A stretch of 40,849 bases of DNA, from the IMG/VR virus record IMGVR_UViG_3300031687_000037, positions 1-40,849 of that record; one strand, given 5' to 3'. The notes beneath the pieces are model-generated. The model saw nothing but the letters and a program-made list of their open reading frames with translations, was not told the origin of the DNA and did not search any database. Numbering within the stretch: position 1 is the stretch's first letter; each line of letters opens with the position of its first letter. Source of the DNA: a virus. Below, in pieces: positions 11,237-40,847 of the stretch. The translations under genes and the position numbers were made by a program.

Positions 11237-11242
11237 ATCTAA

Positions 11243-11257: not shown

Positions 11258-11317
11258 CTTGAAGTGTCCTAAAGGGCATATACCTAGTGTAATTATAACC
11301 AAGTGGAGTAATATAGT

Positions 11318-12273: not shown

Positions 12274-13197
12274 ATGGCAGTTTCATTCGAAGTAACGTTA
12301 AGTAATATGACTGTACTTAAGTATGTGTCAAGAGCATGCTTCGCTCCAGTCAACCATGTATTATCTAATGATCAGATGAGTAGGCACAATAGAGTTAACG
12401 CTATCAAGTACCTACCTTTCTTTCAAAGGTACTACTCTAACGAAGACTGTATGAACCTTGAAGGCTACAAGATGACAAAAGAAATGTCATGGGAGTTAGC
12501 TACTAAGTGGTGGGATTATCTAATGACCCTGCCTTTTATAACCGAGAGTATAAAGGATGACATACCCAGCACAACAGAGGGGTACAAGTCTGGTCTAAAG
12601 GTTACAACCGAGATGCCAGCCGACAGGATGATGCTCACGTTGTTCCTCCTTAGAGCCCCGCAGTACCAGCCTAACATCGTAAGGGTGTGGGATAGGGTGA
12701 TGAAACAACATGACACTAACCCTGACACAGCACTAGTAACATCCTTCGCTATCAATAGCCAACAAGCTAGTGATATAATAGACACCGAAAGCTTTAACCC
12801 TGAATGCTCACCTTTAGATTCAATATCCCCTTTGTATTCTTGTGAGAACACTATCGTATACCCTCAGTACTTTAGCATAATCGGTGCTAAGATAATGCTT
12901 AATAGATTACTGTGCGATGACTACGATAAAGAACTCTTCGGTGGTACACAAGATTACTTCAGAGATAAGAGTCACTACAATCGGTACGCTACTACAGATC
13001 CCAAAGCTTTAGGTAGGTTCTTCTGTAAGAAACCCGCTTCATCATACCGGACAGGTAACCTTCAAGCCCGTGTAGCTAAGGATATACTAGGGCTAGAAGA
13101 TGTAAGCAAGCATAGTAACCTAGACTATAGAAGACGACATGATCTGGCAATGGACAAGGAACAAATAGCCCAACTCATAAAGTTAATTGAATCCTAA
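12274..13197 (+). CDS. Unrecognised protein, first gene of amidoligase cluster
   Basis: A 307-residue protein from the ATG at 12274 (GAGGA upstream; the frame stays open upstream but no good start lies there). It is rich in aromatic and polar residues, with predicted helices and no membrane segment. Visible patches are 'KWWDYLMTLPFI' (near 86-97), 'RMMLTLFLLRAPQY' (near 118-131) and a basic C-terminal part (LDYRRRHDLAMDKEQIAQLIKLIES). I recognise no catalytic motif or family. Its stop is ten bases before the next start, in the same tight unit as four amide-forming enzymes, so it may be the substrate carrier, acceptor or a scaffold of the pathway. That is inference. Confidence 0.75.
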   Translation: MAVSFEVTLSNMTVLKYVSRACFAPVNHVLSNDQMSRHNRVNAIKYLPFFQRYYSNEDCMNLEGYKMTKEMSWELATKWWDYLMTLPFITESIKDDIPSTTEGYKSGLKVTTEMPADRMMLTLFLLRAPQYQPNIVRVWDRVMKQHDTNPDTALVTSFAINSQQASDIIDTESFNPECSPLDSISPLYSCENTIVYPQYFSIIGAKIMLNRLLCDDYDKELFGGTQDYFRDKSHYNRYATTDPKALGRFFCKKPASSYRTGNLQARVAKDILGLEDVSKHSNLDYRRRHDLAMDKEQIAQLIKLIES

Positions 13198-13207
13198 GGG
13201 AGTTAAC

Positions 13208-14014
13208 ATGCTACATAAATCTAAATTGGAAAACGTAACAGTGGGTGCAGACCCTGAGGTATTCGTAGCGAATCATACCGGTACCATAACATCTGCTATA
13301 GGTAACGTAGGTGGTAGTAAAGACTTCCCTCGTCCAGTAACAGACGGTGGTGTTCAAGAAGACAATGTCCTAGCAGAATTTAACATCAACCCTGCCAGTA
13401 ATAAGATAGAGTTCCTTTACAATATGAACTCTGTTATGTCATCTCTTAAAAACATCTTAGAAAACAAAGACTTACAACCAGTCATCATTGCTAGTCACAT
13501 GTTCGACAAAGGTGAGCTCGAAAGCTATGGCCCTATGGCTATGGAATTTGGTTGTAGTGCTGAGTGGAATGCTTGGAGTGGACGTGAAATGCCAAGACCT
13601 CAAGGCTCTAAGGTTAACTTAAGAACTGCAGGTGGTCACGTACATGTAGGCTATGATGACCCCAACAAAGCAGACAGTATCGCTCTCGTTAAGATGCTAG
13701 ACTTTGTACTAGGCTTACCATCTATCGAGGTAGACCCTGACAATCAGAGACGTAAGTTGTATGGTAAAGCAGGGTCAATGAGATACAAACCTTACGGTGT
13801 CGAGTATAGATCTCTCAGTAATTTCTGGTTAAGCTCTGATGATCTCATGTCTTGGGTGTACGACACTACCCTATGGGCCACTAGTAATCTAGGTATGTTA
13901 CCTGAATTCCTAGAGTTAGTGGATAATAAAACTCTTAACAAAGTTATTAATAAGAGTGACAAACAATCTGCTCGTGCAATAATAGATGAGCTAGGTATAC
14001 AGAGGATTGCTTAA
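13208..14014 (+). CDS. COOH-NH2 ligase, phiEco32 type 2 (GS/GCS fold)
   Basis: A 268-residue protein from ATG 13208 (GGGAG upstream). It begins with the family's GADPEVFV signature (D15, E17), then EDNVLAEFN (51-59), GGHVHVGYD (142-150; H144, H146) and 'RRKLYGKAGSMRYKPYGVEYR' near 181-201. These are the metal- and ATP-binding strands of the glutamine synthetase/gamma-glutamylcysteine synthetase fold as seen in the phiEco32-like COOH-NH2 ligase type 2 family. Such enzymes activate a carboxylate as an acyl phosphate and join it to an amine. The substrate is unknown. Stop and next start share one base (TAATG). All expected acidic and His residues are present, so it should be active. Confidence 0.8.
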   Translation: MLHKSKLENVTVGADPEVFVANHTGTITSAIGNVGGSKDFPRPVTDGGVQEDNVLAEFNINPASNKIEFLYNMNSVMSSLKNILENKDLQPVIIASHMFDKGELESYGPMAMEFGCSAEWNAWSGREMPRPQGSKVNLRTAGGHVHVGYDDPNKADSIALVKMLDFVLGLPSIEVDPDNQRRKLYGKAGSMRYKPYGVEYRSLSNFWLSSDDLMSWVYDTTLWATSNLGMLPEFLELVDNKTLNKVINKSDKQSARAIIDELGIQRIA

Positions 14015-14709
14015 TGAACAATCCATTCAAAGATATTAACGCTAGAGATGTAAGCGGTACCTACTTAGACACTTACATTCAAATTAAAACAAGAGACGAT
14101 GATGACTACTACCCTGCTCAGTTGATAAACGTCAACCAAGAGATGAATGGATGTATACTAAGCTTTAAAAGATTCAATGAAGATGTCTTTGTTGTAGGTA
14201 AGGATGATCCTAAAGTTAAGTACAAGTTACAATGGCCTGAGTTAGGTATGGTTAACGTGAGAGATCATGTGTGTTTTGTCAAGAGGATAGCACAACGTCA
14301 ATGGAAGAAAGGGTTAAGACTATCTAACCTAGCTACCACTGTCTTTGACTCTACTATACTTGAAGAGTTATCCTTTACTTCTGAAAGATACAGAGCAAGT
14401 AGCTTTAGTTCAGAAGACATACAACTACTGTATAGACCTGAGTACACACCCTACATGCAAGCCATAGAATCTGTTAGCTCTGGCAGTAGTGTAGCTAGAG
14501 CAATCTCATCTAACTTTTGTATCTCTAATCGATTTGGTGTAATGACACCACTGTTATACTATAAGAAGCATGCTGTTGGTATCGTAAAAGACAACAGTAT
14601 ATCTATAGTACCAGAGGTAAGCCACATCATTCCTATACTAAAGAGGGTTGTCCCAAATGGATTCCACAATTCAATCACTGTGGCAGCACAGCGAAGCAGT
14701 ACCTTATAA
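14014..14709 (+). CDS. Unrecognised protein within amidoligase cluster
   Basis: A 231-residue soluble protein coupled to the preceding ligase by TAATG and overlapping the next ligase by 53 bases. The N-terminal 100 residues look beta-rich (TYIQIKTRDDDDYYPAQLINVNQ, then GCILSFKRF), and the C-terminal half has a Ser-rich helix (ESVSSGSSVARAISSNF, near 150-166). 'RIAQRQWKKGLRLS' near 91-104 is basic. No family or active-site motif is recognised. Close coupling to both ligases suggests it is a pathway partner, perhaps a subunit or the modified target. A 53-base overlap with the next gene also hints at tight co-regulation. Confidence 0.75.
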   Translation: MNNPFKDINARDVSGTYLDTYIQIKTRDDDDYYPAQLINVNQEMNGCILSFKRFNEDVFVVGKDDPKVKYKLQWPELGMVNVRDHVCFVKRIAQRQWKKGLRLSNLATTVFDSTILEELSFTSERYRASSFSSEDIQLLYRPEYTPYMQAIESVSSGSSVARAISSNFCISNRFGVMTPLLYYKKHAVGIVKDNSISIVPEVSHIIPILKRVVPNGFHNSITVAAQRSSTL

Positions 14710-15580
14710 AAATGATAAGACTAAGACAGGTGCACTACTATCTAACACTAGGATAGGTGTCGAAGTTGAAGTAGAACAGATGCAAAGAATGATAAGCGTA
14801 CCCGGATGGCGTTGCACTACTGACGGATCTCTCCGTGAGAATGGCGTTGAGTTTGTATTCAAAGGGCCTATTGGCGGTGCTGGTGCATGTCGTAGACTGG
14901 TAGCACTAGACAAAGTGTTGACATCTATACCTCAAAAGAACTTCTCAGCACGTACCTCTGTGCATGTTCACGTAGACGTTAGAGATATGACTTGGAACGA
15001 ACTTCTAAACCTAGTGATACTGTATGCTATGGTAGAACCTTACCTGTTCAGTGTCTGTGGTCAAGAGAGGGATGAGAGTATCTATTCCTTGTCTCTGTAT
15101 CGTGGTCAAGACCAAGTGTCTAAGCTAATAAACCTAATAGAAAACGGGCCTGAGTTCTTAACGTCACGTAACTGGACTAAGTACTCTAGTGTAAACCTGT
15201 TGTCTGTCATTAACTTTGGTTCTTTAGAGTTCCGTGGTCACCGTGGTACATGTGACAGCGGTACCCTTATCAATTGGATCAACCACCTCTTGTCTCTAAA
15301 GATGTGGGTTCAAATGTATGACAACAACCTGTCAGACTTACCTAAACTACTGAGTACTAGCGGTCACATCGCAATGCTTAGAGAAGTCTTTGGTGATAAA
15401 CTATTAGTGCCTAACATAAAAGCTGCTAATCGTGTACGTAATAAGATATATGAAGGTGTGTGGGTAGCTGAAGATATAATACACCACACTAAAATGAACA
15501 CAACCCACCGTAATCTAATAGAATCATTACAAGGTGGCAACCAATTGGATAAGATAAAGGATAAATTATGTGCGGTCTAG
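14657..15580 (+). CDS. Amidoligase (Amidoligase_2-type, GS/GCS fold)
   Basis: A 307-residue protein from ATG 14657 (AGAGG upstream, inside the previous gene). Signature blocks in order: IGVEVEVE (33-40; E36, E38, E40), TTDGSLRENGVEFVFKGP (54-71), TSVHVHVDVRD (100-110; H103, H105, D107) and FGSLEFRGHRG (187-197; E191, R193, H195, R196). This is the order of ATP/metal and substrate strands in the putative amidoligase family of the glutamine synthetase-like superfamily, distinct from the type 2 ligase at 13208. It likely forms an amide or peptide bond using ATP. It overlaps the amidotransferase gene by 13 bases. Substrates unknown. Confidence 0.8.
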   Translation: MDSTIQSLWQHSEAVPYKNDKTKTGALLSNTRIGVEVEVEQMQRMISVPGWRCTTDGSLRENGVEFVFKGPIGGAGACRRLVALDKVLTSIPQKNFSARTSVHVHVDVRDMTWNELLNLVILYAMVEPYLFSVCGQERDESIYSLSLYRGQDQVSKLINLIENGPEFLTSRNWTKYSSVNLLSVINFGSLEFRGHRGTCDSGTLINWINHLLSLKMWVQMYDNNLSDLPKLLSTSGHIAMLREVFGDKLLVPNIKAANRVRNKIYEGVWVAEDIIHHTKMNTTHRNLIESLQGGNQLDKIKDKLCAV

Positions 15581-16686
15581 TAGGGGTAGTATCAAACAGT
15601 CTTACTTTTCAAACGAACAAAGTGTTCAAGCAACTGTTATATATGGATGCCCTTAGAGGCCCTCATAGTACTGGTGTTGCTACTGACAACAAAGATAACG
15701 AAGTAAGTGTGTACAAACGTGCACTAATGTCAAGTGATTTCTTACAGTTAGATGCAGCAAACACCTTGATCAGTAGTATATCGGGTAGCTTCTTGATGGG
15801 TCACAACAGGTACGCAACCCAAGGTAGTATCAATGATGACAACGCACACCCATTCACCTATGGTAACGTGACCCTATGCCACAACGGTACCTTGACTGAT
15901 CAAACTACACTACCAGATCATAAAGACTTTGAAGTGGACAGTGAGAATATCGCATGGGCTATGGGGTTAGCAAAAGAACCTGAAGAGGTTATAAGTAAAC
16001 TTCACGGTGCCTTTGCTTTGACTTGGTACAATGACCATGAACTTAAGTTCTATATAGTACGCAACAGTGAGCGACCTATGTGGTATGCTATAGATAAAGA
16101 GAAAAGTAATTACTATTATGCTTCTGAAAGATTCATGCTTGAGGCAGCTCTAACTAGAAACAGTATCAAGTATGACATCAAAGAAGTTAAGGCTGGTGAA
16201 CTGCTTACCTTCGATATGTCTAAGACTAATATAGAACTCACTATTAGAACTGTTAAGTTAGCACCTAAGAAAGTAATAACTAGCCCTTCGTATCAATCAT
16301 GGAACATTAAAAGTTATAAAACAGCAAACCCTCTATCGTCTTACAACCTTAAGATAGGGGACGAGGTTGAGTTCTACACACACGGGTTACCTGATGTTGT
16401 ATCATCTAAAACTTTGGGTACCCTACTAGGTGTAAGTACTTGCAAAGTACCTATGACTATCAAGTGCTATGCACAGCCCAATGACTCTATTGCTGGGTAC
16501 TACACAGGCATAGTACAATCTGTTATTAATGATAAAGGAAAAGATATCCTTATCATAAGAGAACCTTGGCTAGCAGAGATCATAGAGGGTGATGTTAACA
16601 ACGTAGGTAGGCCTGAAATCGTAGATAAAATACTATCAAAAGACGCTGCGCTAGCGTCAACCATAAACCAAAGGGCATTTAAATGA
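15568..16686 (+). CDS. Class II glutamine amidotransferase (Ntn hydrolase)
   Basis: A 372-residue protein that starts MCGLVGV. Once Met is removed, Cys2 is the N-terminal nucleophile as in GlmS, PurF and asparagine synthetase. Other glutaminase-site residues are present: GHNRYATQG (78-86, R81), DNAHPF (91-96), CHNGTLTD (104-111, N106, G107) and an acidic 'VDSENIAWA' (near 122-130). The first ~210 residues form the glutaminase domain, which releases ammonia from glutamine. The remaining ~160 residues (strand-rich, LKIGDEVEFYTHGLPDV near 258-272) do not resemble an isomerase or synthetase domain. I infer ammonia supply to one of the adjacent ligases, or glutaminyl transfer. Its stop overlaps the ATP-grasp start (ATGA). 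Confidence 0.85.
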   Translation: MCGLVGVVSNSLTFQTNKVFKQLLYMDALRGPHSTGVATDNKDNEVSVYKRALMSSDFLQLDAANTLISSISGSFLMGHNRYATQGSINDDNAHPFTYGNVTLCHNGTLTDQTTLPDHKDFEVDSENIAWAMGLAKEPEEVISKLHGAFALTWYNDHELKFYIVRNSERPMWYAIDKEKSNYYYASERFMLEAALTRNSIKYDIKEVKAGELLTFDMSKTNIELTIRTVKLAPKKVITSPSYQSWNIKSYKTANPLSSYNLKIGDEVEFYTHGLPDVVSSKTLGTLLGVSTCKVPMTIKCYAQPNDSIAGYYTGIVQSVINDKGKDILIIREPWLAEIIEGDVNNVGRPEIVDKILSKDAALASTINQRAFK

Positions 16687-17915
16687 GTAAACTATTAGTA
16701 CTTCCATACAAATCATCCAGTAAATCTGCTGTTGTAATAGCTAATGAACTGGGTTGTAAAAGAATGAACCTAACTAACTCAAGGGTAGTTGATAACCCTA
16801 ACACTAGCATCATTAACTGGGGTAACTCAACAACTAACCTGTCACACTTACCCTCTGTTAAAGTGTACAACGTATCAGAGAACGTAAGATTAGCATCTCA
16901 TAAGTTAGATTTCTTTAAGGCTATCGAACAGTACAACGATGCTAATCAAGATAGCCCTGTGTCTATACCAGACTGGACATCTAAGGTCAGTGTTGCAAGA
17001 CGATGGTACACTGAAGGTAACGATGTAGTTGTACGTAACGTAATGCAAGGTCACTCTGGTGATGGCCTTGAATTAATAAGCTATGACGAAAGTATACTTG
17101 CTAAGGATGCTGTACCTAAAGCACCTCTATACACTAAGTATATGAAGAAGAGAGACGAGTACCGTGTCCATGTTGTAGGCCAAGAGGCTATCTTCTTACA
17201 ACGTAAAGCCCCAAGATATAGTGATAGTCGTATCGTTGACTACCAAATACGTAACACTGCTAATGGATTCATCTTTGTAACTGAAGGCTTAAACCCTAAT
17301 CCTCTTGTAGAATCTGAGGCTGTTAAAGCTGTTGTTGCATTGGGCTTAGACTTCGGAGCTGTAGATGTTATATGGAATGAAAGACGTGGTAAAGCTACTG
17401 TAATAGAAGTCAACACTGCGTGTGGGTTAACAAGCATTAAGGGTATCGAGCGGTACAAGAGAGCCTTAGAGTCTATGTTAACCAATAAAGCTCAAATAAA
17501 ATGGAGTCAAAGTTTACCTATCGATAACTTTGAAGAGACGCTTGAAGACCTTAACACCATGTTTAATGAGGTAGAAGCTAAGAAAACTTTCCTTCGTAGA
17601 ACTTCACAGTTACTAACAAGCTCAGCCCCTAATGAAAGGATAACCTATAACTCTATTGGAGACTCAGTAATATTATCTGATGTCATTAAAAGTTATATAG
17701 TTGATTATGTTTTAGAAGGTGGTACTGAGAATGGAGCTAACAATTACCATACAATATCAGAGCTATCAGGCCTTATGTGTGACTTTATACTGTACGATTG
17801 GAAAGTACAAGAGGACACATGTCGTGTGCTATTCTCCCCTAGGTCAGATGATACCTTACGATGCCACATAGAACTAGACCTACCTAGTAGTCAAATACAT
17901 TTAGTGGAGGGTTAA
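16683..17915 (+). CDS. ATP-grasp ligase (RimK-like) with C-terminal extension
   Basis: A 410-residue protein. The ATP-grasp fold is visible as the glycine loop GHSGDGLEL (123-131), the strand 'LYTKYMKKRDEYRVHVVG' (149-166), GLDFGAVDVIW (221-231, D228) and the Mg-binding ATVIEVNTACGL (238-249; E242, N244), an intact set. RimK-like ATP-grasp ligases join a carboxylate to an amine through an acyl phosphate. Residues 271-410 lie outside the core and are not recognised. The start codon overlaps the amidotransferase stop (ATGA) and the next gene begins one base after the stop, so the four enzymes are almost certainly co-translated. Substrate not predictable. Confidence 0.85.
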   Translation: MSKLLVLPYKSSSKSAVVIANELGCKRMNLTNSRVVDNPNTSIINWGNSTTNLSHLPSVKVYNVSENVRLASHKLDFFKAIEQYNDANQDSPVSIPDWTSKVSVARRWYTEGNDVVVRNVMQGHSGDGLELISYDESILAKDAVPKAPLYTKYMKKRDEYRVHVVGQEAIFLQRKAPRYSDSRIVDYQIRNTANGFIFVTEGLNPNPLVESEAVKAVVALGLDFGAVDVIWNERRGKATVIEVNTACGLTSIKGIERYKRALESMLTNKAQIKWSQSLPIDNFEETLEDLNTMFNEVEAKKTFLRRTSQLLTSSAPNERITYNSIGDSVILSDVIKSYIVDYVLEGGTENGANNYHTISELSGLMCDFILYDWKVQEDTCRVLFSPRSDDTLRCHIELDLPSSQIHLVEG

Positions 17916-19049: not shown

Positions 19050-19133
19050 TGTCTTACAACGTAACTGAGAGGTGTTGTGTAGGATTCTAGGCAATTAAGT
19101 ACCTTATAGAGGGCACCCTAGAAGGAGGATACA

Positions 19134-20348: not shown

Positions 20349-20510
20349 ATGTCCGGCAAGGGTTCAAGGCCACGGCCTATGAAAGAAAAAGAAGCGTACT
20401 CTAAATCATGGGATGCTATCTTCGGTAAGAAAGACAAACCTGAGGAAGCAGTAGAGCCCTTCGGGCTCCTAAAAGGTGAGGATAAAGATGCAGAAGATAA
20501 AGATAATTAA
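20349..20510 (+). CDS. Small basic/acidic phage protein, 53 residues
   Basis: Starts two bases after the preceding stop. The N-terminus MSGKGSRPRP and the Trp-Asp-x-Ile-Phe-Gly-Lys-Lys core (21-28) recall a short conserved protein found in many podoviruses, function unknown. The C-terminus is acidic (KGEDKDAEDKDN). A GAGCCCTTCGGGCTC hairpin lies inside the coding sequence (codons for EPFGL), and the gene overlaps the endonuclease gene by 23 bases, so the hairpin may influence translation of both. Confidence 0.6.
   Translation: MSGKGSRPRPMKEKEAYSKSWDAIFGKKDKPEEAVEPFGLLKGEDKDAEDKDN
20454..20468 (+). other. GAGCCCTTCGGGCTC hairpin inside a coding region
   Basis: The same 15-base hairpin as at 11243-11257, here within codons of the 53-residue gene and 19 bases ahead of the endonuclease VII start. 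No T-tract follows. A processing or translation-control site is possible. Confidence 0.5.
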
Positions 20511-24762: not shown

Positions 24763-25510
24763 TGATCACGAAGAGAAGTTTGAGTTTGACAAGTGTTTTA
24801 TAGACGGGGACTCGATGCTGTACAGAATAGCGTACACCACCGACTCAGATGCTCAAGCACAAAGCACCTTAGACCTAGCACTACTAGCTGTAATGAGAGA
24901 TACTAACTCAGCTAAGGGTTATGTAGCTGTGAAAGGTAAGGGTAACTTCCGTCATGACATGGCTGATGATTACAAAGCTAACCGTAGTAAAACTGAAATG
25001 GATCCTCGGATTAAACAAAACCTTAATAGCTTGTATCAATACTGCTGGGATACTGGATGTGTCCAAGCGCATGGGTGTGAGGCAGATGACTTGGTTTCTA
25101 TCTGGGCTACTGAAGCAGAAGAAGCAGGCGACTCCTTTGTCATAGCCCATGTTGATAAAGATATTGATATGGTTCCGGGTTGGCACTACAACTTCAACAA
25201 GAAAAGTATGTATCATGTTGACGAAGAAAAAGGCCACTACCTACTTTGTAAGCAGTTGCTAACTGGTGATTCTTCTGATAACATACAGGGTCTTAGAGGT
25301 GTAGGCCCTAAGACTGCAGAGAAACTGTTAGCTAACGTAAGCAAGGGTGATATGCTGGATGTAGTTAGGAAGTCTTGGAGGGAGAAACACCCAAGAGACT
25401 GGAAGGAGAAGCTTCAACTCTGCTTCAACCTAATCTATATGCGTAGATCCTTTGACGGTTTCGAGGCACTAACTATTGAAGAAGTGTATGGAGAGGGTAG
25501 ACTTAGATGA
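24746..25510 (+). CDS. 5'-3' exonuclease / flap nuclease (FEN-like, T7 gp6 role)
   Basis: A 254-residue nuclease of the FEN/5'-3' exonuclease family. Acidic metal sites in order: FIDGDSMLY (near 18-26), DYKANR (near 74-79), GCEADDLV (near 110-117), VDKDIDMVPG (near 136-145) and LTGDSSDN (near 171-178), with a helix-hairpin-helix-type GLRGVGPKTAEKLL just after. It would remove RNA primers and degrade host DNA for nucleotides. The gene overlaps polymerase by 17 bases and the next gene by four (ATGA). Confidence 0.92.
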   Translation: MLTFTDDHEEKFEFDKCFIDGDSMLYRIAYTTDSDAQAQSTLDLALLAVMRDTNSAKGYVAVKGKGNFRHDMADDYKANRSKTEMDPRIKQNLNSLYQYCWDTGCVQAHGCEADDLVSIWATEAEEAGDSFVIAHVDKDIDMVPGWHYNFNKKSMYHVDEEKGHYLLCKQLLTGDSSDNIQGLRGVGPKTAEKLLANVSKGDMLDVVRKSWREKHPRDWKEKLQLCFNLIYMRRSFDGFEALTIEEVYGEGRLR

Positions 25511-26046
25511 CTAAACAAAACTTAGGGCATTGGGAGTACGGAGGTTCTCCCTTTGATCCTGATAGTTACTTCGGGTTTATATACCTGATTACATGCACAC
25601 ACCCTGAAGAACCTAAGAGGTACATAGGTCGTAAGCAATTCCATATGTACCGCAAGGGTAAAGACAGGGCTGTGTCTAACTGGAAAACTTATAGCAGTTC
25701 ATCTAAACATATTAACAAGATGATACTAGACTACGGTAGCGATAACTTTAAGTTTGAGATACTACAATTGTTTGAAACTAAAGGTGGCTTGTCAGCAGGT
25801 GAAGTCAAGGTTCAATGGGAACTTGATGTGCTTACTCAGAAGTATACCGATGGTACTCCTGTCTTTTTAAACAGACAGATAGGGGCAATTAAGTTTATTC
25901 CTAAGGAAGAAGTTAATGACAGAACAAGAGAGCGACTCCAAGGTATCGCCTTCGGAATCAGAGAAGAACGGGAAAGTCAAGAAAGCCTCAAGGATTCAGA
26001 GGAAGAAGCTATCACAAACAAAGAGAAGATTAATAAAGAACCTTAA
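25507..26046 (+). CDS. GIY-YIG nuclease-domain protein (SegE-like)
   Basis: A 179-residue protein. FGFIYLITC (near 22-30) and RYIGRKQF (near 38-45) form the GIY-YIG core, followed by KTYSSSSKHI and 'LDYGSDNFKFEILQLFETK' as in SegE-like phage proteins. A Glu further on (EVKVQWELDVL) could bind metal. The C-terminal 50 residues are charged and low in complexity. Such proteins can be homing endonucleases, but this one sits in the tight replication operon (ATGA overlap with the exonuclease) and does not interrupt a gene. A resident repair or host-DNA-cutting role is as likely as homing. Confidence 0.75.
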   Translation: MTKQNLGHWEYGGSPFDPDSYFGFIYLITCTHPEEPKRYIGRKQFHMYRKGKDRAVSNWKTYSSSSKHINKMILDYGSDNFKFEILQLFETKGGLSAGEVKVQWELDVLTQKYTDGTPVFLNRQIGAIKFIPKEEVNDRTRERLQGIAFGIREERESQESLKDSEEEAITNKEKINKEP

Positions 26047-30654: not shown

Positions 30655-30680
30655 GGGGGCCCTAACGGGCTCCCTTTTTT
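30655..30680 (+). terminator. Rightward terminator of the convergent pair
   Basis: GGGGGCCC (30655-30662) and GGGCTCCC (30667-30674) pair over eight positions (one G-U), followed by TTTTTT. It overlaps the stop codon of the leftward 1328-residue gene. Confidence 0.85.
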
Positions 30681-33600
30681 ATTGTAATGTTGTTTTAAAC
30701 TTAGGATCATCCATAGCAAACTGATAGATACCTCTTGCCTTACCTTCTCCGCTAGCTGCGGAAACGTACTGGTAGTGTGCATCTTTCATATGCTTAGCTA
30801 CTCCTCTTCTCCTTTCAGCAGAATCTCTATCAAGCCTTGCAAGATCCTTTACAACTGAACCAAACTTCCACTTCATTAAGAAAGACATAGACTCTGATAA
30901 GGTAGCATAGTTTCTGTAAGGGTTAGGTGTCTCTATCTCAAGACCTTTGTACTGATGTGGCTTTAACCTAGCAGCTAAACGTTCAGCTTCTTCCTTAAGT
31001 GGCCCGTCAACATCTAAGTAATTAAGTTGATTCCTAACAAACTCAACAGTATTGTTGTGTTCATCTTCCATTATCAACTCTTTACCTGCCTGTTCCCCTC
31101 GTCTTTTAAACTCCTTAAAGCCATGGTGGATGTTACCTGTAACTACATCCTTGATATCCTTAAGAACAGCAGAGTTATTAGTTTGATCAAACCAATCATC
31201 ATTTAACATCTGTTCTACAATATCACCTTGACTTAAGTCTGTAACAACAGCGTCATAAATAGGAGATAGCCAAGGCATATTATCACCTTGCGTAAGCTTA
31301 GTCCAGTTCTTACCAGATGCCAACATAATCATGTTCATTGCATCAAAAGACTGAGCAAGTGTAGCTAAGGAAGATCCCCTTGCTTTACCGCCTAAGATAC
31401 CACCCTGTGCAGCATAAGGGGTTAGCTGTGGGTTAGCAGAAGTAGTTTGAATCCTTTGATCAACTGACTTAAGCTGTTTCCTTAGTGCATCAGCTCTGAC
31501 TAAGTTACCTTCAGCTTCAGCTCTTGAAATACTATCTTGTATTCCTTTGTTTACCTTACGGTTACCTGCTATAGTTTTACTGTCAAGCCTCTTACCATTT
31601 TCAAATGGAGTTATCATACCCCTCTTGAAACTCTCAGTGTCGTATACTTTCTCCATACCACCTAACGTAGTCTTACCGCCACTTGGGCTTGGGAAAGTAA
31701 CCATTCTGTTAAACATAGTAGACGCATCAACAGAATCCTTAAGCAAAGCAGCAAACTCTACAAGCTCAGGCCCTAAGGTAGCTTCAACTGCAACACCTCT
31801 TATATCGTTTAGTAACATAGCAGCGTTGTTAAGTCCACCGGGGAATGACTCAGCCGCTTGCTTAAGAGTAGGATCACTAAGTAAAGTATCCCAGACAGAA
31901 CCTATTAAGTTATCCATCTCTTGACCATAAGCAAAGGTCATTAAAGGTTTCTTAAGGAAGTCTGCCTTGTTCTTTAAAGACAACTGAAAGAGTTCTCTTA
32001 CATTATCTAACATAGTTTCGTCATAGCTGTACTTATCCATGAACGCTTTGTCAGTAAGCATGTAACCGCTGAACTCACTGTCAAGTAAAGTCTCTAAGTT
32101 ATTACTGAGGGTCTTTCTTATATCACCTTCGTAAGCTTCAAAGCCTTCTATGTCAGAATAAGCTCCAAGTATCTTACTAGCATTCTCAGCACGGAACAAA
32201 CCAACCCGATACAACTTCTCTTTAAGACCTAGTATGCTGAACATAGTAGCTAATCCATTAGAGATGCCATCGATTTCCATATAGTTAACAGCAGATCTAA
32301 AAGACTTACCTGCTTTCATAGCTGCATCATAGTTAGCTATATCAATAACAGCATCTATCATTTGTATAGCATGCTTGTGTGCTTTCTTGTTATTAGCCAA
32401 ACCTTGTATGAAGTCTGCAACCTCAGGGTCAGAAGATAAAGCTGCTGGTACTCTAGTAGGTAGCTTGTCTACACCTGAAACACCATTACTGTTTACCATA
32501 ATCTGAGACAAAGCTAATCGTGCTGGCTTGTCATCGTAAGCCTGAAGGGCCTCGTTGATCTTTTTGCCAATCCTAACTAGTCTCTTATGGGCCTCAGATT
32601 GTGTACGTATGTTACCCGCAGCTTGCTCTATAGCATCAGCCCTTACAAGACCACCTCCGTCATAGAACAAAGCAGACATAGTAGCCAACCAGTTACTCTC
32701 TTCTCTGCTACGGCTGTTAGGAATGACCTCGATCATCTTACCACTGCCAATAATATTACGAACAAGATGGTTGTTAACTGGTGATAGCGAAGAGTGTGGT
32801 GTTAACCTTTGAGTAACTCTTTGTTTAAAGTATGTAAAGTAAAAAGGTTTATTGTCATACACAGATAAGCTCGTAAGAACCTCAAGGGCTTTGTTAGCAT
32901 GCATGTAATACTGTTGCTGTTGGAACTCTGGAGTTCTAAACTTAGCTTCTTGCAACTTAGATATCTCTATATCTTGCTGTAGTTTCTCTATTAAAAACAC
33001 AGTACGATAATAAGCAGGACTAGAAGGTTCAACAAGCAGAGCTTTATCTAGCTTAGCCTGAAGTACAAGACCCCTAGCATTTTCATTTTCTGCTATCTTT
33101 GCAATAGAAGCTTTCCTTTCATCACCTATGTCAAACATATCAAGCAAAGGGTTACCATTAGCACCCATAGCAGCCTGACCCATAGCAGCAGAGCCTAACA
33201 AGATTGCAATCTTAGATCGTCTAGGTTCAAAGTAATTAGGCACTTGACTGTAACTAAACATAGCATCATCGGCGCTAATAGACTTAGGGTTAGGTACAGA
33301 TCCTGTGCTAGACTTAGTATAAGCAGATCCCTCATACATAGGTTGACCTGTAGCAGGGGGAGATAGAAGTGGCTTCATCCTTGGATTAAAAGGTTTATAC
33401 TTCCTAACATCTCTTGAGAGTACCTGAAATCCTAGCTTAGTCAAAGACAAAGTAGGTGGTAAAATATTACCAGCTTCATCAATACCGCCCGGAGAATGAG
33501 TAACTATATCCGGGAAACTCATTTGATAATCAGCAAGAAAAATCTTACCAATCATTTCAAAAGCCTCAGGTGTTAAGTTCTGGTAATCAGCTACGTAAGA

Positions 33601-34665
33601 ATCTGTTTCCAAACCTTCCATCTCAGACTTAGCTCTACGAAAATCCTTAAAGATAGCCTCACCCACACCTCTAACCGATGTGTCAAACTTAGAGTCTCCG
33701 GCTTGATAACCTTGCAACTCATCTATGTCTGCTTGAGCAGCAGAACTTAGAGGTGAACCATCGTCATTGTTAGCTTGAGACATGCTTAGAAGCCAAGGCT
33801 CTATCACTGCCATTTGTATTAGGTCAAACCGTGGGTCTACTTTAGCTGTCCTTGCGTAAGATATTTCCTCAAAGTCTGCCTCTCCGTCTGCATAAGCCTG
33901 AGCTGTGTCACGTTCGAACTTAGCATCTAGCTTACCAACCCCAAGGATCTTAGGGTGCATCACTAAGTTAGACATGCTTAACTTTAAATCAGGATTGTCC
34001 TTGAAAACATTAGGGGCTACATCATCCTGAGTCTGCATCTGTTCGATAGCCTCAGCAGTAACTTCCTCATCAGGGTTAAGCTTAAGGGTATCCTTAATGC
34101 TTAGACCAATAACATCCCTGTCCTGAGAGTCCCTTGTTTTAAACCTAACTCTTTCTGTAAGCTCATGCCCTAAGACATTTGCTGCATTAGAGAAGCTAGT
34201 GGCGATACCCATTCTTTCTAATGGGCCGGGGACTCTTTCCTGTTCCCGTTGTTGAACCTCAAGGGGTGTCTCAGCTTGATCAACAAAGACATTGCTGCCT
34301 TCCTCAACCACAGAGCCAACACCCTGAGAGCCTACGTCAGCTTGCGCAGGTAGTACAGTGGCTTCTGCCAGACCTAAGTCTGAAACAGGAGTCTCTAGTT
34401 GAGACCCCTCAGCAACCATATCAGTTTCATCTATGATACCAAGTTGTATCAAGTCTTCTCGGGTATACTCACCTTCGCCTTGTACTCCTTGAGGCCCTTC
34501 CAATGGGCCGAACTGTTCCTCTATTCCTTGAAGAGCCTCGTTACCACCTTGAGCTTGTTGAGAAAGCTCTTCCTGTAACCTGAGAAGCGACTCTTGTTTA
34601 CTTGCTTCTGTTTCAGCAGCCGTAGGTTGAGCACCTATCACTGCGTTAGCTGACGTAATCGCCAT
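30679..34665 (-). CDS. Very large virion/ejection protein, 1328 residues
   Basis: A 1328-residue soluble protein, last of three leftward virion genes. The N-terminal 90 residues are Gln-, Glu- and Gly-rich and of low complexity; residues 66-82 carry a motif (EYTREDLIQLGI...) also present near the start of the 1604-residue protein. The remainder is helical, with hydrophobic stretches that are not clear membrane spans (e.g. SKIAILLGSAAMGQAAMG). The C-terminus has LMKWKFGSVVKDLARLDRDS near 1270-1290. No enzyme domain is recognised. Size, order and pairing suggest a counterpart of T7 internal core proteins gp15/gp16 that are ejected to form the trans-envelope channel. The ATG at 34665 lies three bases after the preceding stop, with AGGAGAA as ribosome site. 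Confidence 0.6.
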   Translation of the reverse strand: MAITSANAVIGAQPTAAETEASKQESLLRLQEELSQQAQGGNEALQGIEEQFGPLEGPQGVQGEGEYTREDLIQLGIIDETDMVAEGSQLETPVSDLGLAEATVLPAQADVGSQGVGSVVEEGSNVFVDQAETPLEVQQREQERVPGPLERMGIATSFSNAANVLGHELTERVRFKTRDSQDRDVIGLSIKDTLKLNPDEEVTAEAIEQMQTQDDVAPNVFKDNPDLKLSMSNLVMHPKILGVGKLDAKFERDTAQAYADGEADFEEISYARTAKVDPRFDLIQMAVIEPWLLSMSQANNDDGSPLSSAAQADIDELQGYQAGDSKFDTSVRGVGEAIFKDFRRAKSEMEGLETDSYVADYQNLTPEAFEMIGKIFLADYQMSFPDIVTHSPGGIDEAGNILPPTLSLTKLGFQVLSRDVRKYKPFNPRMKPLLSPPATGQPMYEGSAYTKSSTGSVPNPKSISADDAMFSYSQVPNYFEPRRSKIAILLGSAAMGQAAMGANGNPLLDMFDIGDERKASIAKIAENENARGLVLQAKLDKALLVEPSSPAYYRTVFLIEKLQQDIEISKLQEAKFRTPEFQQQQYYMHANKALEVLTSLSVYDNKPFYFTYFKQRVTQRLTPHSSLSPVNNHLVRNIIGSGKMIEVIPNSRSREESNWLATMSALFYDGGGLVRADAIEQAAGNIRTQSEAHKRLVRIGKKINEALQAYDDKPARLALSQIMVNSNGVSGVDKLPTRVPAALSSDPEVADFIQGLANNKKAHKHAIQMIDAVIDIANYDAAMKAGKSFRSAVNYMEIDGISNGLATMFSILGLKEKLYRVGLFRAENASKILGAYSDIEGFEAYEGDIRKTLSNNLETLLDSEFSGYMLTDKAFMDKYSYDETMLDNVRELFQLSLKNKADFLKKPLMTFAYGQEMDNLIGSVWDTLLSDPTLKQAAESFPGGLNNAAMLLNDIRGVAVEATLGPELVEFAALLKDSVDASTMFNRMVTFPSPSGGKTTLGGMEKVYDTESFKRGMITPFENGKRLDSKTIAGNRKVNKGIQDSISRAEAEGNLVRADALRKQLKSVDQRIQTTSANPQLTPYAAQGGILGGKARGSSLATLAQSFDAMNMIMLASGKNWTKLTQGDNMPWLSPIYDAVVTDLSQGDIVEQMLNDDWFDQTNNSAVLKDIKDVVTGNIHHGFKEFKRRGEQAGKELIMEDEHNNTVEFVRNQLNYLDVDGPLKEEAERLAARLKPHQYKGLEIETPNPYRNYATLSESMSFLMKWKFGSVVKDLARLDRDSAERRRGVAKHMKDAHYQYVSAASGEGKARGIYQFAMDDPKFKTTLQ

Positions 34666-34668
34666 TGT

Positions 34669-37600
34669 TTATTCTCCTGTTATCCAACCATTATCTACAG
34701 CGGTATCATACATCCGATGCTTTAAGAAAGAGAAGGGTGTTAACCCAGCACCAGATTTAAGTGCCTTTCTTGCGTCATCTTCTAAGATACCCTGTCCAAA
34801 GCCGTGTACGTTTTTAACTATATTAGATGCAGGGGCTTCTCCTGACATAAGGTTCCACATAGAACCAAGTGCACTATCACTTCTGTTTTCATAGAGAGGG
34901 AACATTAGATCACTGCTAATGATTCTTTCAGTGGTGCCCAACAGACCTGTAGAATACAGGGCTCTTAGGTATTTCTCTTCATCACTTAAGTAAGGTGATC
35001 CTTCTCCAAACTTAATAAGGTCTTTCAAATGTTGTGAAGCATAGCCTAACATAAGCATAGTCATGATCGATGCAAAGGCAGAGTACTTCATTCCGGGGGT
35101 AGCGTTCTTAACTGTATCCCACAAAGCTGGTATATGGTTAGCAGTAAACTGGGATATGAAACCCTGAAACTGAGTAAACAAAGCTAGATGTGGATTACTG
35201 TAGAACAAAGGTCTTCCCATAGCTGTAGGCATAGGCACTGAGGCGTTGACATAGCTTATAAAACCATTGTCAAACTGTCTCTCATACTCAACCTGTAGCT
35301 CAGCTTGTTGTTGTTTAAAGAAGGCTAGCTCCCTTGGCCCTAAAGATTCTATGTCAACCTGTTTATTTTCTAACAGTCTACTAGAAAGATTAAGCATCTT
35401 ATCCACAGGGATACCCATGTACTCTAACATCTTACGAGCTTCCGCTGCTTCGTTAGTAATTGTACCTTGGCTATTGTGAAGTATATCTAAGTTCTCAATT
35501 AAAAAGTCGTTGTACATAGACGCACGTATACTTCTTGTTAAGTTAGTTATACCTTGGAGACCAATGATCTTAAAGAAGGAGTCCATTATAGCCTGAGTCA
35601 TCTGATTAGTTTCAGATACACCAACTAGAACAGCAGCACCAGTCTTCTGAGATAAGAATCCACCACGACTTAAGTTACCTCTAGGATCATCTAAGCCTAC
35701 GAATCGTGGGTCAGAAGCTTGTCTATCGCTGCGAGACTTAATCTGAGTATCAAAGTTACTACGTGTAGGGGCTACTCCTGTAATCCTACCTACTTCTGCA
35801 AAGTACTCAAACATTTCTCTACCTAACAGTAGACCAAAAGACCCTACGTTCTTATGTAGGTTCTGTAGTGAACTTCCTTTTACTGTAAGTGCCAACTCTA
35901 CGGTAGAAGAGATAGCAGCTAACGGTAACATAGTTAGTACACCAGTCAGTGTTAAGAACTTCTGGGCACCACGAACAGCATCGCTTTGGATACGCTTGTA
36001 GTTACCAGAGTCAGCATTGATAAGATCACCCAGTGCAAGAGTAAGGTCTTCTACTGTTTCACGAGCGTTAAGCTCAGCAGGTGTACCAACCTCAGCGTCC
36101 CCTCGGATCTCATTGTATACATCATTAAGCATAGATGTAACTAGCATATTGTTCTTACCAAGAAACTTAGTAGTAGTCATATACCTAGCAGAGGACTTCA
36201 TAGAGTACTCAAGATTATTAAAGATATCTTGCTCTAAGAACTTGTCAAAGGCAGGGGTATCTGAAATGTCTAACGATCTTCTCTTATGGCCCTTAGGGTA
36301 CAAACCACCACGAGTTAAATCGAATGCCTCATCTAAAGTATTTATCTCTGGATTATCAATGATAGCATCAGTTATAGAAACAGCATCATCCCTGTCCATG
36401 CCCTTATGTCTTACAAGCAAGTTAACAAACTCATCCTTGTTCTTAGCTATGACTTCCTTTAGGAACCCTTTGCTTCTGAAGATGTGATCCTGAAGAGCAC
36501 CAAGTATGTTAGGGTTGCCTGCTTGCTTTTGTCTACCAACTATATCAGTGTACATAGTGTTATCCACAGTGTACAACTCACTGATTAACATCTTAAGAGA
36601 GTCAGCGTTTTCAGTGAAGTTAGGGTTAGATAAATTATCCCAATCAATAGCAGCAATAACTTGATCGCCAGTCATCCACTCTTCGTTAGTACGTTTAGAT
36701 CCGTCCTTGTTAACCCTAGTTATCGGGGCAATGTGTTCTAAGTAAAAAGAGTTAACTAAAGCTGATACTGCTGTCTTCCGTGCACCATATCTGCTAGCCT
36801 TAACCTTAAAGGATGCAAGGACTTCTTGCATAGGCCTTAGCTTATTCTCAAAGTTAATGTAGTTAATTACTTTATCATTATGAAAGTCAACACCACCATG
36901 TGTCTTGTTCTTTCTACCACCAAACATATCGTATATAACACGAGCAGTCTTGCTTTGGTTAAGTAATTCAGTGCTCATTCTAGTATCTAGTGCTGTACGT
37001 AACAGAACCATAGGGCTAGTCAGTGCATCCTTTAGGGATTCACGGATAGTCTTAGCATCTTTACGTCCTTGAGCAGACTCTGTCCTACGTTGACCAGCAT
37101 CAGGGTCATCTCTTAGTTTTTGAGCTCTAGCCTTTGCTCTAGCTTTATTAGGTGCACTTGCACCCTCGTCTACATTACCATTAGCAGAGTCCCAAGCATT
37201 CTGCATGACCTCATCTAAGTCAGGAACTTCGTCTACGTTATTCTTACTCTTGTTCTCTGCTCTAGCTTCAGCTTTGTAACCTACAGTAGCGTCATCAAAC
37301 CTACCATCGTAGTCAGACTTAGAGATACCAGCGTCATACCATTGACCTGCTTTAAAAACAGTAGTAGGTACAGAGAAAGCGCCACCTAAGGTACCACCAG
37401 CAACTAAAGCACTGGCTAATCGGCTCTCTAACTCTTCGTAATCCCAAGTTTTCTCAGAACCAATGACAGAAGCAGTGTACTGAGTAAGTTCCTGCAGCAT
37501 CTCAGTGCTTCCTTCAAAGGCTGCACCAGCGGTAAGTCTCTTTGTAAGCTCTTTTAGTATGTGACCCTTAGCATATTGCTTAGATGCAAACTCTCCAGCA

Positions 37601-39483
37601 TCTTTAGCATAACTAGCTAGCTCTCGTTTAGTTAAACGTGTCAATACTTCTTCAGCTTGATCCTTACTTAAGCCTACAGTAGCCGCATTACCTGCCTCTT
37701 TGCCTAAAGTAGCAGCAGCTCGTGCTAGTGGAGCACCAGTAGCGTTCATAAGGGCATCAATAGCTACCTTCTTAGACTCACCAGTTAAGAAATGCTGGCT
37801 GTTAAAGCCCCCTAAAGCTCCTCTAAGGCCTAAACGATCCAGAGAGGCTGCGATAGCACCACCAACTACAGCTACGCCATAGCTCTTATCCTGTATGTTA
37901 CCGGGCATCTCATCAAGTATAAGACCAGAGTACATAGCAACAGGAATAGTAAGGCTAGCCCCGAAAGTTAAAGGTGCAGTAACCATAGAAGCCATAGTGA
38001 CTCCCATAAAGGGTATAGACATCACAAGGTTAGACCCTATGAACTCGCCTACTTCACCAATAGAGCCCCAGTTTACATCCTTATAGTCTAAGCGTACCTT
38101 AGCCTGACCTTCCATCTCAGTTTTACTCTGCTCTACTTGACCAGTAAGCCACGCTCTAGTGTCTGTAGCTCCAACTACATCTGCCATTGCAGCACCAACC
38201 ATCTTAAAAGAGTTACCTACCATAGTCAGGGATGAATCCCAAGTGTCAGACAGTGGTGTTTTAGATCGGTTGTCTAGTGTTGCGTTGGTGTTTCTAATTA
38301 AAACATCAGAGAATATCTCAGGAAATGCTGAGTACTCTTGCTCGTTAAGAGCCTGTAGTTTTGCAATAGGTACACCATTAGTAGGGGACAAGCCTGCTAC
38401 TTTAATTAGTTCAGCAGCAAACTCGTAGTCTGTCTTAGGTACAGTGTCTTTCCTTAGGGCCCTTAGGCCATCACCGTACAACGACCTTGAGTAGCTATCG
38501 TCACTAAGGGTTTCCCGTGAGTTACCTATGAAGGTAGGCCTAGCGATACCACCAGAGATTAGGAAGTCTGTGAAAGACCTACCGTCCTCGTCTACTAGAT
38601 CACCAATAGCTCGACCGTATCTATCTTTTTCCTTAGATGCTTTTACAGTAGTGTATCCATACTTGTTAGCAAGAGCAGACACCATGTCTTTGCTTACTTG
38701 CCCAGCACCCTCACCGACTACGTAACCTTTCTCTTTAAGAACCTTAGAGGTTTCAGCTAAGTCAATGTCCCGTAGTCTTACACGATCTCCAGTTGCAGAG
38801 TCCTTAATGGTATCTCCATCAATGAAAGACCATCCTGAGTTTCCGATACTATAATCGAATGTTTCGGTTGTAGCCTCAGGTACTACTTCCGTCTTTGATG
38901 GGTCAGTCAAGAAACTTTGACCGGCGTAAGAGCCAACAGCGTTAGCTACTCTCTTCATTCTTTTGTGTACACCTGTTCCTTCTTTTATAGACTTTTCGTA
39001 GTCATCATTACGCAGAAACTCTTGAGAAGCTTCCTCGTAATTACCTTCGTTCATAAAGCCTACAAACTTAGGGGAAGTACCAAGGTCACCTCTGTACTCA
39101 GCTTGAATGATCTCAGCCTTAAGGTCTTCTGGTAAATTATCTAGTGTTGGTATACGATTACGTGCCCTCTCAACGTGATGTTGGAATGCAGCATCAAAAC
39201 CTTTATCTATCCACTCACCTGTTTGACCTACGCCTTGAGTTGTCACACCCTTAGTATCAAGGTAGGGGGCAGCTCGGTACCCTTCCTCTGCAACTACTCT
39301 TTGCTCAGCGTAAGTTAAAGGTCTTCCAAGGTTCTCGGAGACTTTAGTTATTGCATCTGCTCCGTGGTAGACATCCTTGTCCACCGTGTTACTTTGTGGG
39401 AGAGTAGGGTCGGTATCAGGTTCATTTAAGAGACCCAGAGCACTCAACTCTTCTTCTGTATATTCAATTTTATTGTCGCTCAT
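34669..39483 (-). CDS. Ejection protein with GH24 lysozyme and SNase domains
   Basis: A 1604-residue virion protein. Residues 55-190 match a GH24 lysozyme: E67, D76 and T82 have the exact E-(+9)-D-(+6)-T spacing of T4 lysozyme, in 'EGYRAAPYLDTKGVTTQGVG'. Residues 205-325 match a staphylococcal (thermo)nuclease: IDGDTI (D222, D224), VRLRDIDLAE (R236, D241, E244) and DRYGR (R291), the equivalents of D19, D21, R35, D40, E43 and R87. A long hydrophobic segment (about 484-523) could enter the inner membrane; the rest is helical and unrecognised. T7 gp16 carries a transglycosylase, so a wall-cutting domain on an ejected protein is expected, but a second nuclease domain is not. Residues 7-23 share a motif with the 1328-residue protein. 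Confidence 0.8.
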   Translation of the reverse strand: MSDNKIEYTEEELSALGLLNEPDTDPTLPQSNTVDKDVYHGADAITKVSENLGRPLTYAEQRVVAEEGYRAAPYLDTKGVTTQGVGQTGEWIDKGFDAAFQHHVERARNRIPTLDNLPEDLKAEIIQAEYRGDLGTSPKFVGFMNEGNYEEASQEFLRNDDYEKSIKEGTGVHKRMKRVANAVGSYAGQSFLTDPSKTEVVPEATTETFDYSIGNSGWSFIDGDTIKDSATGDRVRLRDIDLAETSKVLKEKGYVVGEGAGQVSKDMVSALANKYGYTTVKASKEKDRYGRAIGDLVDEDGRSFTDFLISGGIARPTFIGNSRETLSDDSYSRSLYGDGLRALRKDTVPKTDYEFAAELIKVAGLSPTNGVPIAKLQALNEQEYSAFPEIFSDVLIRNTNATLDNRSKTPLSDTWDSSLTMVGNSFKMVGAAMADVVGATDTRAWLTGQVEQSKTEMEGQAKVRLDYKDVNWGSIGEVGEFIGSNLVMSIPFMGVTMASMVTAPLTFGASLTIPVAMYSGLILDEMPGNIQDKSYGVAVVGGAIAASLDRLGLRGALGGFNSQHFLTGESKKVAIDALMNATGAPLARAAATLGKEAGNAATVGLSKDQAEEVLTRLTKRELASYAKDAGEFASKQYAKGHILKELTKRLTAGAAFEGSTEMLQELTQYTASVIGSEKTWDYEELESRLASALVAGGTLGGAFSVPTTVFKAGQWYDAGISKSDYDGRFDDATVGYKAEARAENKSKNNVDEVPDLDEVMQNAWDSANGNVDEGASAPNKARAKARAQKLRDDPDAGQRRTESAQGRKDAKTIRESLKDALTSPMVLLRTALDTRMSTELLNQSKTARVIYDMFGGRKNKTHGGVDFHNDKVINYINFENKLRPMQEVLASFKVKASRYGARKTAVSALVNSFYLEHIAPITRVNKDGSKRTNEEWMTGDQVIAAIDWDNLSNPNFTENADSLKMLISELYTVDNTMYTDIVGRQKQAGNPNILGALQDHIFRSKGFLKEVIAKNKDEFVNLLVRHKGMDRDDAVSITDAIIDNPEINTLDEAFDLTRGGLYPKGHKRRSLDISDTPAFDKFLEQDIFNNLEYSMKSSARYMTTTKFLGKNNMLVTSMLNDVYNEIRGDAEVGTPAELNARETVEDLTLALGDLINADSGNYKRIQSDAVRGAQKFLTLTGVLTMLPLAAISSTVELALTVKGSSLQNLHKNVGSFGLLLGREMFEYFAEVGRITGVAPTRSNFDTQIKSRSDRQASDPRFVGLDDPRGNLSRGGFLSQKTGAAVLVGVSETNQMTQAIMDSFFKIIGLQGITNLTRSIRASMYNDFLIENLDILHNSQGTITNEAAEARKMLEYMGIPVDKMLNLSSRLLENKQVDIESLGPRELAFFKQQQAELQVEYERQFDNGFISYVNASVPMPTAMGRPLFYSNPHLALFTQFQGFISQFTANHIPALWDTVKNATPGMKYSAFASIMTMLMLGYASQHLKDLIKFGEGSPYLSDEEKYLRALYSTGLLGTTERIISSDLMFPLYENRSDSALGSMWNLMSGEAPASNIVKNVHGFGQGILEDDARKALKSGAGLTPFSFLKHRMYDTAVDNGWITGE

Positions 39484-39497
39484 ATCCGACCTTTCTC

Positions 39498-40847
39498 CTA
39501 TTTTTTAGTAAGTAGTGCCTTTGCATTTTGTATGCTTTGGACTACACTATTAGCTACGTCTGAAGGGGAACCAGCTAAGTATTGTGGTTCAGATTTACTC
39601 TTAGTAAACATACTGTTTACCCAAAGAAGAGCAGGTGATAATTGCTCTGCTTTGTTATCTGATGAAGCCTCAGATCTAGATTCCCAATGCTCCTTAATAC
39701 CCTTAGGCCCTGTTAACATTGCGTTACTATAAGCCCTATGTAAATGTTTGTATACATTACCATTGGTAAAATCAGACTGAGGTAATTTACTATCTTTTAG
39801 TTTAGAGTTAAGTACAGAGTTAAAAGTCTTAGCATTAGTCCTAACCTTAGCCCAAGCGTTCTGACCAATCTCACCTTTAGGTTTACCTATGACTTCAAAG
39901 AACGAAGAAGGTATACCCTTATCAGTGATATCATACTTAAGCTTTTGGAAGTCAAAGAAAGATGCAATATCTTTATTGTTCTTAGCTCCACCTCTAGCTA
40001 CAGTATCAATCCAATCTTCCATACCCTTAGTAATCATAGACTGAACAACTGATTCATCTGTTGCGAAGTCAGTGTTAGCTGGAAAACCGTTTACAAAAGA
40101 AGAAACAGCTTGAACAAGACTACTACGTGCAGTGGAGCTATTTAACTGCTCTATTAAGAATCTTCTTTTCTCTACTTTCATATCAGGGTCAGCTTCCAAG
40201 ACACCTGTTATCCTTTTAACAGCATTCTCAGAAGTTGTTTGAGCTTCTTTAACTAGTCTTTGGATAGCACCATCTTGAGTCTCACCATTAAAAGAAAAAG
40301 CATTACTGCCAATAAGAGCAGACATTGGAACACTGCCGCCAGCTTTAAGATCAGGAAATGAGCTTAGAAACGGCTTAATATTTGAAGGGAAGAAACGACT
40401 ATTATCTTGAGACTTAACACCATCCACTTCTTGCCTTGTACTGTTGTCAAACAGGGTAACGCCATTATCAAAATTTGGAGAGAGATCAGCAGCTTGCTTA
40501 GCAGAAGCTGTAGCTTTTACTTTACCTGAAGCAATTGCTTGATCAGAGTCAGCTTTAGCTTTAGCAGCTTGTACTTTCCACTCGTTCTCAAGGACTGCAG
40601 CACCAAAGGATACACCGTCCCCACCTAGTACCTTAGAGGCTGTGTAAGCAAACAAAGCTTTACGCAAAGCAGGATCTTCAAAACCTTGCTTAGCAATATC
40701 CTTAACGCTGTCCCAAAGTTTACCAAAGAAAGTTGGATCTTCCTTTGCTTCATCTAATGAAGCCTTAGGTGTTTCGTTACCTGCACCACCTATATCAGAA
40801 TCTTTAAGGTTTTTATCTACTTTGGTAGCTACAGCAGTTGGCACTGT
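39498..40847 (-). CDS. Virion protein, 5' end at window edge
   Basis: At least 448 residues. The frame is open to the right edge, and the first possible start is a GTG at 40844 without visible context, so the true N-terminus may lie outside. It is Ala-, Lys- and Asp-rich with helical stretches; 'DPTFFGKLWDSVKDIAKQGFEDPALRKALFAYTASKVLGG' near residues 36-75 looks amphipathic, and the Ala/Lys-rich part that follows (near 87-117) resembles a coiled coil. It lies 15 bases before the 1604-residue gene and is in the same unit, like T7 gp14 before gp15/gp16. No domain recognised; an internal virion protein is inferred from order. Confidence 0.55.
   Translation of the reverse strand, partial: TVPTAVATKVDKNLKDSDIGGAGNETPKASLDEAKEDPTFFGKLWDSVKDIAKQGFEDPALRKALFAYTASKVLGGDGVSFGAAVLENEWKVQAAKAKADSDQAIASGKVKATASAKQAADLSPNFDNGVTLFDNSTRQEVDGVKSQDNSRFFPSNIKPFLSSFPDLKAGGSVPMSALIGSNAFSFNGETQDGAIQRLVKEAQTTSENAVKRITGVLEADPDMKVEKRRFLIEQLNSSTARSSLVQAVSSFVNGFPANTDFATDESVVQSMITKGMEDWIDTVARGGAKNNKDIASFFDFQKLKYDITDKGIPSSFFEVIGKPKGEIGQNAWAKVRTNAKTFNSVLNSKLKDSKLPQSDFTNGNVYKHLHRAYSNAMLTGPKGIKEHWESRSEASSDNKAEQLSPALLWVNSMFTKSKSEPQYLAGSPSDVANSVVQSIQNAKALLTKK

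Follow-up and report, generated by a model that had tools for sequence, protein, structure and literature searches.

Ejection proteins are already known to carry wall-cutting domains. Such a domain is present in T7 gp16 and in the gp15-like ejection proteins of K1E and K1-5, and different phages place it on different proteins of the ejection set, according to the accessible part of a review (PMC8954989) in which the word "nuclease" has 0 occurrences. In N4, the virion RNA polymerase (vRNAP) leaves together with two conduit proteins (PMC12633501, accessible part). CRP-7, a podovirus of marine Roseobacter, was described as a new group (PMC6918029, accessible part). In the open-access PMC literature, we found no description of a nuclease on an ejection protein, be it of the staphylococcal nuclease (SNase) or of another type, a search outcome that does not prove absence.

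The DNA analyzed here, which we call the window, is a virus record of 40,849 bases (IMGVR_UViG_3300031687_000037, positions 1-40,849). Terminase, portal, scaffold, and capsid genes lie at one end, and three large genes at the other: that of the protein P0001 and its two neighbors. The portal shares 51% identity with its counterpart in CRP-7, the nearest named phage. A purine-rich, plausible ribosome-binding site at approximately 39491-39500 is located upstream of the P0001 ATG. The stretch 38509-39321, for which a lysozyme and a thermonuclease fused at the front of an ejection protein had been proposed, corresponds to residues 55-325 of P0001, and the order in the chain is a GH24-like lysozyme, then the SNase domain, then a long body. 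The features are as follows.

39498-40847, minus strand: gene upstream of P0001, truncated at the end of the window; CRP-7 has at this position gp35, with a pesticin-type lysozyme
34669-39483, minus strand: open reading frame of P0001, a likely ejection-type protein of 1604 aa
38914-39372, minus strand: GH24-like lysozyme domain, residues ~38-190, triad E67/D76/T82 (Pfam, PDB profile, fold, and conservation)
38509-38856, minus strand: SNase domain, residues ~210-325, with D222, D224, R236, D241, E244, and R291 (Pfam, PDB profile, fold, and conservation)
34672-38448, minus strand: P0001 body, residues 346-1604
34948-36204, minus strand: C-terminal part of P0001, residues 1094-1512, homologous to the LUZ24-like virion structural protein (phrog_6958)
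30679-34665, minus strand: next gene, encoding an N4-vRNAP-like product of 1328 aa; motif A around D799, motif B K905-Y913, motif C D1138

Other parts of the window also show features of their own. A cluster of COOH-NH2 ligase, amidoligase, glutamine amidotransferase, and S6-glutaminyl-transferase-like genes is located at 13187-17915 (plus strand), and a SegE-type GIY-YIG endonuclease gene at 25507-26046 (plus strand) overlaps the end of a 5'-3' exonuclease gene. Inside the tail-fiber gene, at 1197-2168, there are many repeats at multiples of 21 bases. Near-identical repeats around CCCTCTATAAGGTACT, two tandem and one inverted, are found at 10587-10636 and 19098-19118 and may serve as promoters for the phage RNA polymerase. 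A GAGCCCTTCGG-GCTC-type hairpin occurs three times (10752-10790, 11240-11278, and 20451-20489) and may act as a terminator.

Several lines of evidence identified the SNase domain. Pfam SNase (PF00565) scored 24.4 bits on residues 234-324 of P0001, above the gathering cut-off of 21, and a profile of 11 sequences matched staphylococcal nuclease among PDB sequences with an E value of 7.1e-5. When the segment was modeled alone (14 sequences), the model reached a pLDDT of 74.1 and a pTM of 0.74. Foldseek gave 274 matches to this model at an E value of ≤0.001; staphylococcal nuclease accounted for 50/50 among the matches listed, with a best E value of 8.6e-6. Furthermore, a VIA comparison with staphylococcal nuclease yielded a Z score of 9.9 over 115 aligned residues (rmsd 3.8). 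Thus, the OB-like SNase fold, on which the original prediction had been staked, is seen in the predicted structure, and D222, D224, R236, D241, E244, and R291 lie where that prediction had placed them. We conclude that the SNase domain of P0001 is genuine. It shares its fold and active-site residues with staphylococcal nuclease (thermonuclease), from which it differs in being one domain within an ejection-type protein of 1604 residues.

The P0001 residues were paired with the staphylococcal active site via the PDB profile alignment, and we take them to have the catalytic roles of their staphylococcal counterparts, an Asp/Arg/Asp/Glu/Arg set at family spacing. All six were invariant in 17/17 distinct SNase domains, in which only 18/140 positions were invariant; under random placement, which ignores the easier conservation of D, G, and R, the probability that all six are invariant by chance is 2e-6. 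Purifying selection was detected in the SNase segment, with pS at 0.46-0.66 and pN at 0.044-0.127 in the 8 informative of 10 pairs (the other two were too alike). Judged by these residues, the active site looks intact and the nuclease catalytically competent. Since some Tudor-SN repeats have an SNase fold without catalysis, we considered that the domain could be a structural or nucleic-acid-binding module. The divergent sequence would fit this: the relatives L017 (18.1 bits) and L039 (16.0 bits) stayed below the Pfam SNase cut-off of 21, and L044 and CRP-7 gp34 gave no Pfam SNase match. However, 122/140 positions vary while the six active-site positions do not, and we regard a noncatalytic domain as very unlikely. 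In a wider search for related SNase domains with L017 and L044 as single queries, each found itself alone.

The lysozyme was divergent from the family model. An HMM match to both families had been suggested as a check, and the SNase model delivered it; Phage_lysozyme did not, since it scored 16.4 bits (residues 66-95) against a cut-off of 22.3. In the relatives L034, L039, and L044, the scores were 21.1, 18.2, and 14.1 bits, respectively. Because of these values below the Pfam cut-off, we name the domain GH24-like; the gathering score is a curator's threshold and not a biological trait. A PDB profile search retrieved the phage lysozyme 2anv (E value of 0.009), which we take to be that of P22. 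Residues 1-350 were modeled with a pLDDT of 65.8 and a pTM of 0.44, with low confidence at 189-209, 250-263, and 318-350. The lysozyme part of this model matched P1 Lyz in Foldseek (E value of 1.2e-3) and T4 lysozyme in VIA (Z score of ~11). E67, D76, and T82, presumably the GH24 E-D-T triad at T4 lysozyme spacing, are located as originally predicted. Across 29 distinct lysozyme domains, E was present in 29/29, D in 28/29, and T in 28/29, and both deviants (L064 and L033) sit in other proteins. We conclude that the lysozyme is genuine but divergent, and from its conserved triad the active site looks intact.

In a viral structure library, the best structural match to residues 1-350 was A0A516LXN0_1 (359 columns, 26% identity), which, judged from the model, may be a further lysozyme-nuclease protein. 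A lysozyme of the same type was also found near the C-terminal end (residues 2624-2783) of a 2829-aa open reading frame (L056:126-8612).

Next to its two enzymatic domains, P0001 resembles a virion protein. Residues 1094-1512 matched the virion structural protein of Bruynoghevirus/LUZ24-like phages (Epa1 gp19 and VPp1 gp14; phrog_6958) with an hhalign probability of 99.1; unlike P0001, these two proteins contain no lysozyme or SNase detectable by Pfam. P0001 thus combines homology to a known virion protein with a place in the structural module. The prediction that the chain behind both domains is an ejection or virion protein is therefore likely to be right, and we infer that P0001 is present in the virion. 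Calling the phage T7-like was looser: the nearest named phage is CRP-7, the next gene resembles that of the N4 vRNAP, and hhalign detected no homology between the P0001 body and T7 gp16 (probability of 0.1). Because the body lacks detectable similarity, we use T7 gp16, which also carries a wall-cutting domain, as an analogy. A whole-protein profile (A2) had no match among solved structures up to an E value of 1, and defense-system models gave no match.

The lysozyme relatives bear on whether P0001 belongs to the particle at all. Those from Alteromonas and Vibrio phages are ~44-45% identical and bear the annotations endolysin, lysozyme domain protein, or virion RNA polymerase. If P0001 were not a virion protein, the lysozyme and the nuclease would be late cytoplasmic or lysis enzymes joined by a chance fusion, and the close relationship of the lysozyme domain to lysozymes that stand alone in Vibrio and Alteromonas phages would agree with this. 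Yet the same lysozyme, like that of P0001, is found at the N terminus of giant proteins: the Schitoviridae vRNAP (Vibrio phage 1.097.O; ~44-45% identity) and the internal virion protein of Foturvirus (Alteromonas phage H4/4 gp39/gp40), where the annotation has a -1 frameshift that joins the two. Together with the homology of the P0001 C-terminal part to a virion structural protein, this makes the nonvirion origin highly improbable. The Foturvirus and Schitoviridae proteins differ from P0001 in that no SNase match was found in the open reading frames read and in that the chain after the lysozyme is another one. As a separate observation, the annotated -1 frameshift in H4/4 (L032:8998-14867) means that its lysozyme may exist in a free as well as a fused form.

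To compare the two domains among relatives, we considered 30 contigs encoding the body, 4 of which are cut before the N terminus. In the 26 N-terminally complete ones, SNase was present in 26/26 and lysozyme also in 19/26. Because the queries used to collect the loci were body, lysozyme, and full-length sequences, the 19:7 split is skewed toward lysozyme carriers. Several contigs are near-copies, so the 26 contigs contain the 17 distinct SNase domains mentioned above. The census SNase profile was built from rows that include L017 and L025-L027; for CRP-7, support independent of this profile came from tblastn with the window SNase segment (E value of 3e-8). A 60.8-kb contig (L024), which matched residues 626-711 only and had no body match by profile, was left out of the count. 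In bacterial genomes, a pattern search gave 60 stretches, of which zero were relatives.

Lysozyme is absent from seven complete relatives, namely CRP-7, five further contigs from its clade, and L017. In CRP-7 and L025, a pesticin-type lysozyme was detected at the N terminus of the upstream neighbor (27.5 and 27.4 bits, respectively; cut-off of 25.8). In L017, neither the nuclease protein nor the upstream neighbor yielded a lysozyme, showing that the lysozyme-nuclease pair is not universal. The upstream proteins of the lysozyme carriers L001, L003, L008, L039, and L044 yielded no lysozyme. Since the lysozyme is found either on the nuclease chain or on its neighbor, most of the modules tested have one wall hydrolase, while the nuclease stays put. 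A tree of 18 bodies as drawn requires 2 lysozyme changes, with L017 on a long branch of unsure placement; this tree allows a single lysozyme origin as well as more than one. Given its occurrence in all complete relatives, SNase, not lysozyme, is the constant element among the known relatives. The original prediction was right that both domains are real, and its emphasis shifts to the nuclease. The lysozyme had also been considered as a hallmark of P0001-type proteins, a candidate rejected due to its absence in 7/26.

The organization of CRP-7 (MK613349), in which gp33 to gp35 are all annotated as hypothetical proteins, is similar to that of the window. In gp34, as in P0001, SNase directly precedes a homologous body, the gene has the same place in the gene order, and a polymerase-like gene follows. 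Unlike P0001, gp34 is without lysozyme, which is located instead on the neighboring gp35, and the overall identity is ~23%. The distribution of nuclease and lysozyme over the neighbors gp34 and gp35 counts in favor of explaining P0001 as an ejection protein.

The gene following P0001 was analyzed similarly. Its 1328-aa product matched phrog_2206 (E value of 8.7e-7) and aligned with N4 vRNAP with an hhalign probability of 73.8 (P value of 2.9e-5), colinear over motifs A and B, while the control, the P0001 family against the same vRNAP alignment, gave a probability of 0.1. E797, D799, Y913, and D1138 were invariant in 10/10 sequences; motif C (D1138) was read by eye. A PDB profile search with this protein returned 3 matches up to an E value of 1, with no polymerase among them, and tblastn against phages retrieved no relative. 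CRP-7 gp33 is a distant relative. With moderate confidence, we assign the 1328-aa product as a putative N4-type virion RNA polymerase. On the opposite strand, the phage encodes a further RNA polymerase of 698 aa. Should the reading of the 1328-aa protein hold, the proteins ejected would form a set similar to that of N4.

A polymerase-like gene was located directly after the P0001-type gene in 10/10 gene sets (the window, L003, L004, L005, L017, L025, L039, L044, L048, and CRP-7). This constant neighborhood raises the question of whether the nuclease acts on the DNA of the phage itself, nicking or trimming an end for entry or readying a template for the co-ejected polymerase, and it would suit the special template state that N4 vRNAP requires. 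However, SNase enzymes have little sequence specificity in cutting and would endanger the genome, which makes action on the phage's own DNA decidedly unlikely.

Taken together, a marine short-tailed phage probably packs in its particle P0001, a protein with a wall-cutting and a DNA/RNA-cutting domain that helps the DNA into the cell. In our leading explanation, which we hold at slightly less than an even chance, a CRP-7-type podovirus carries P0001 as an internal protein and ejects it; the lysozyme of P0001 opens the wall and its nuclease cuts at entry, most likely in the periplasm. We infer ejection, enzyme activity, compartment, and substrate from domain content, gene order, and analogy. P0001 would be packed in the particle and exit together with the genome, its N-terminal lysozyme would open the peptidoglycan, and its nuclease would cut nucleic acid at the entry point. 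In T7, the transglycosylase domain at the N terminus of gp16 is located where the conduit passes through the periplasm (PMC8954989). By analogy with this placement, we favor the envelope side over the cytoplasm; the P0001 nuclease would most likely be periplasmic and outside the conduit, while the incoming genome would be shielded inside the tube and spared. Staphylococcal nuclease is Ca2+-dependent, and Ca2+ from seawater should be plentiful in the periplasm, which would allow a Ca2+-dependent SNase to work there. The likeliest periplasmic substrate would be the DNA of competing phages or free DNA. Against the ejection explanation counts that a nuclease packed with a genome must be held inactive; no mechanism of restraint is evident here.

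The same SNase domain evidence would also fit a nuclease that is delivered to the cytoplasm and immediately, ahead of phage gene expression, attacks the chromosome or the RNA of the host, and a co-ejected N4-type polymerase would suit such a takeover package arriving with the genome. However, the phage DNA is also in the cytoplasm, free Ca2+ is very low there, and the phage-encoded 5'-3' exonuclease and endonuclease VII could degrade host DNA later. We therefore consider an immediate cytoplasmic attack unlikely, if a serious contender, and retain the periplasmic ejection nuclease as the preferred explanation.

The finding raises the question of how a nuclease shares the capsid with DNA that stays uncut, and what its target is on arrival. 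This is testable, since CRP-7 is in culture and has the conserved unit of nuclease and body. Tentatively, and with appreciable doubt, we propose a lineage of marine podoviruses that brings a nuclease into the host envelope before any gene expression, directed against competitor DNA or host nucleic acid, with wall hydrolases that are swapped and a virion RNA polymerase that is co-ejected. Ejection proteins are known with wall-cutting domains and, in N4-like phages, also with a polymerase; a conserved nuclease would be a third class of enzyme delivered along with the genome, before phage gene expression.
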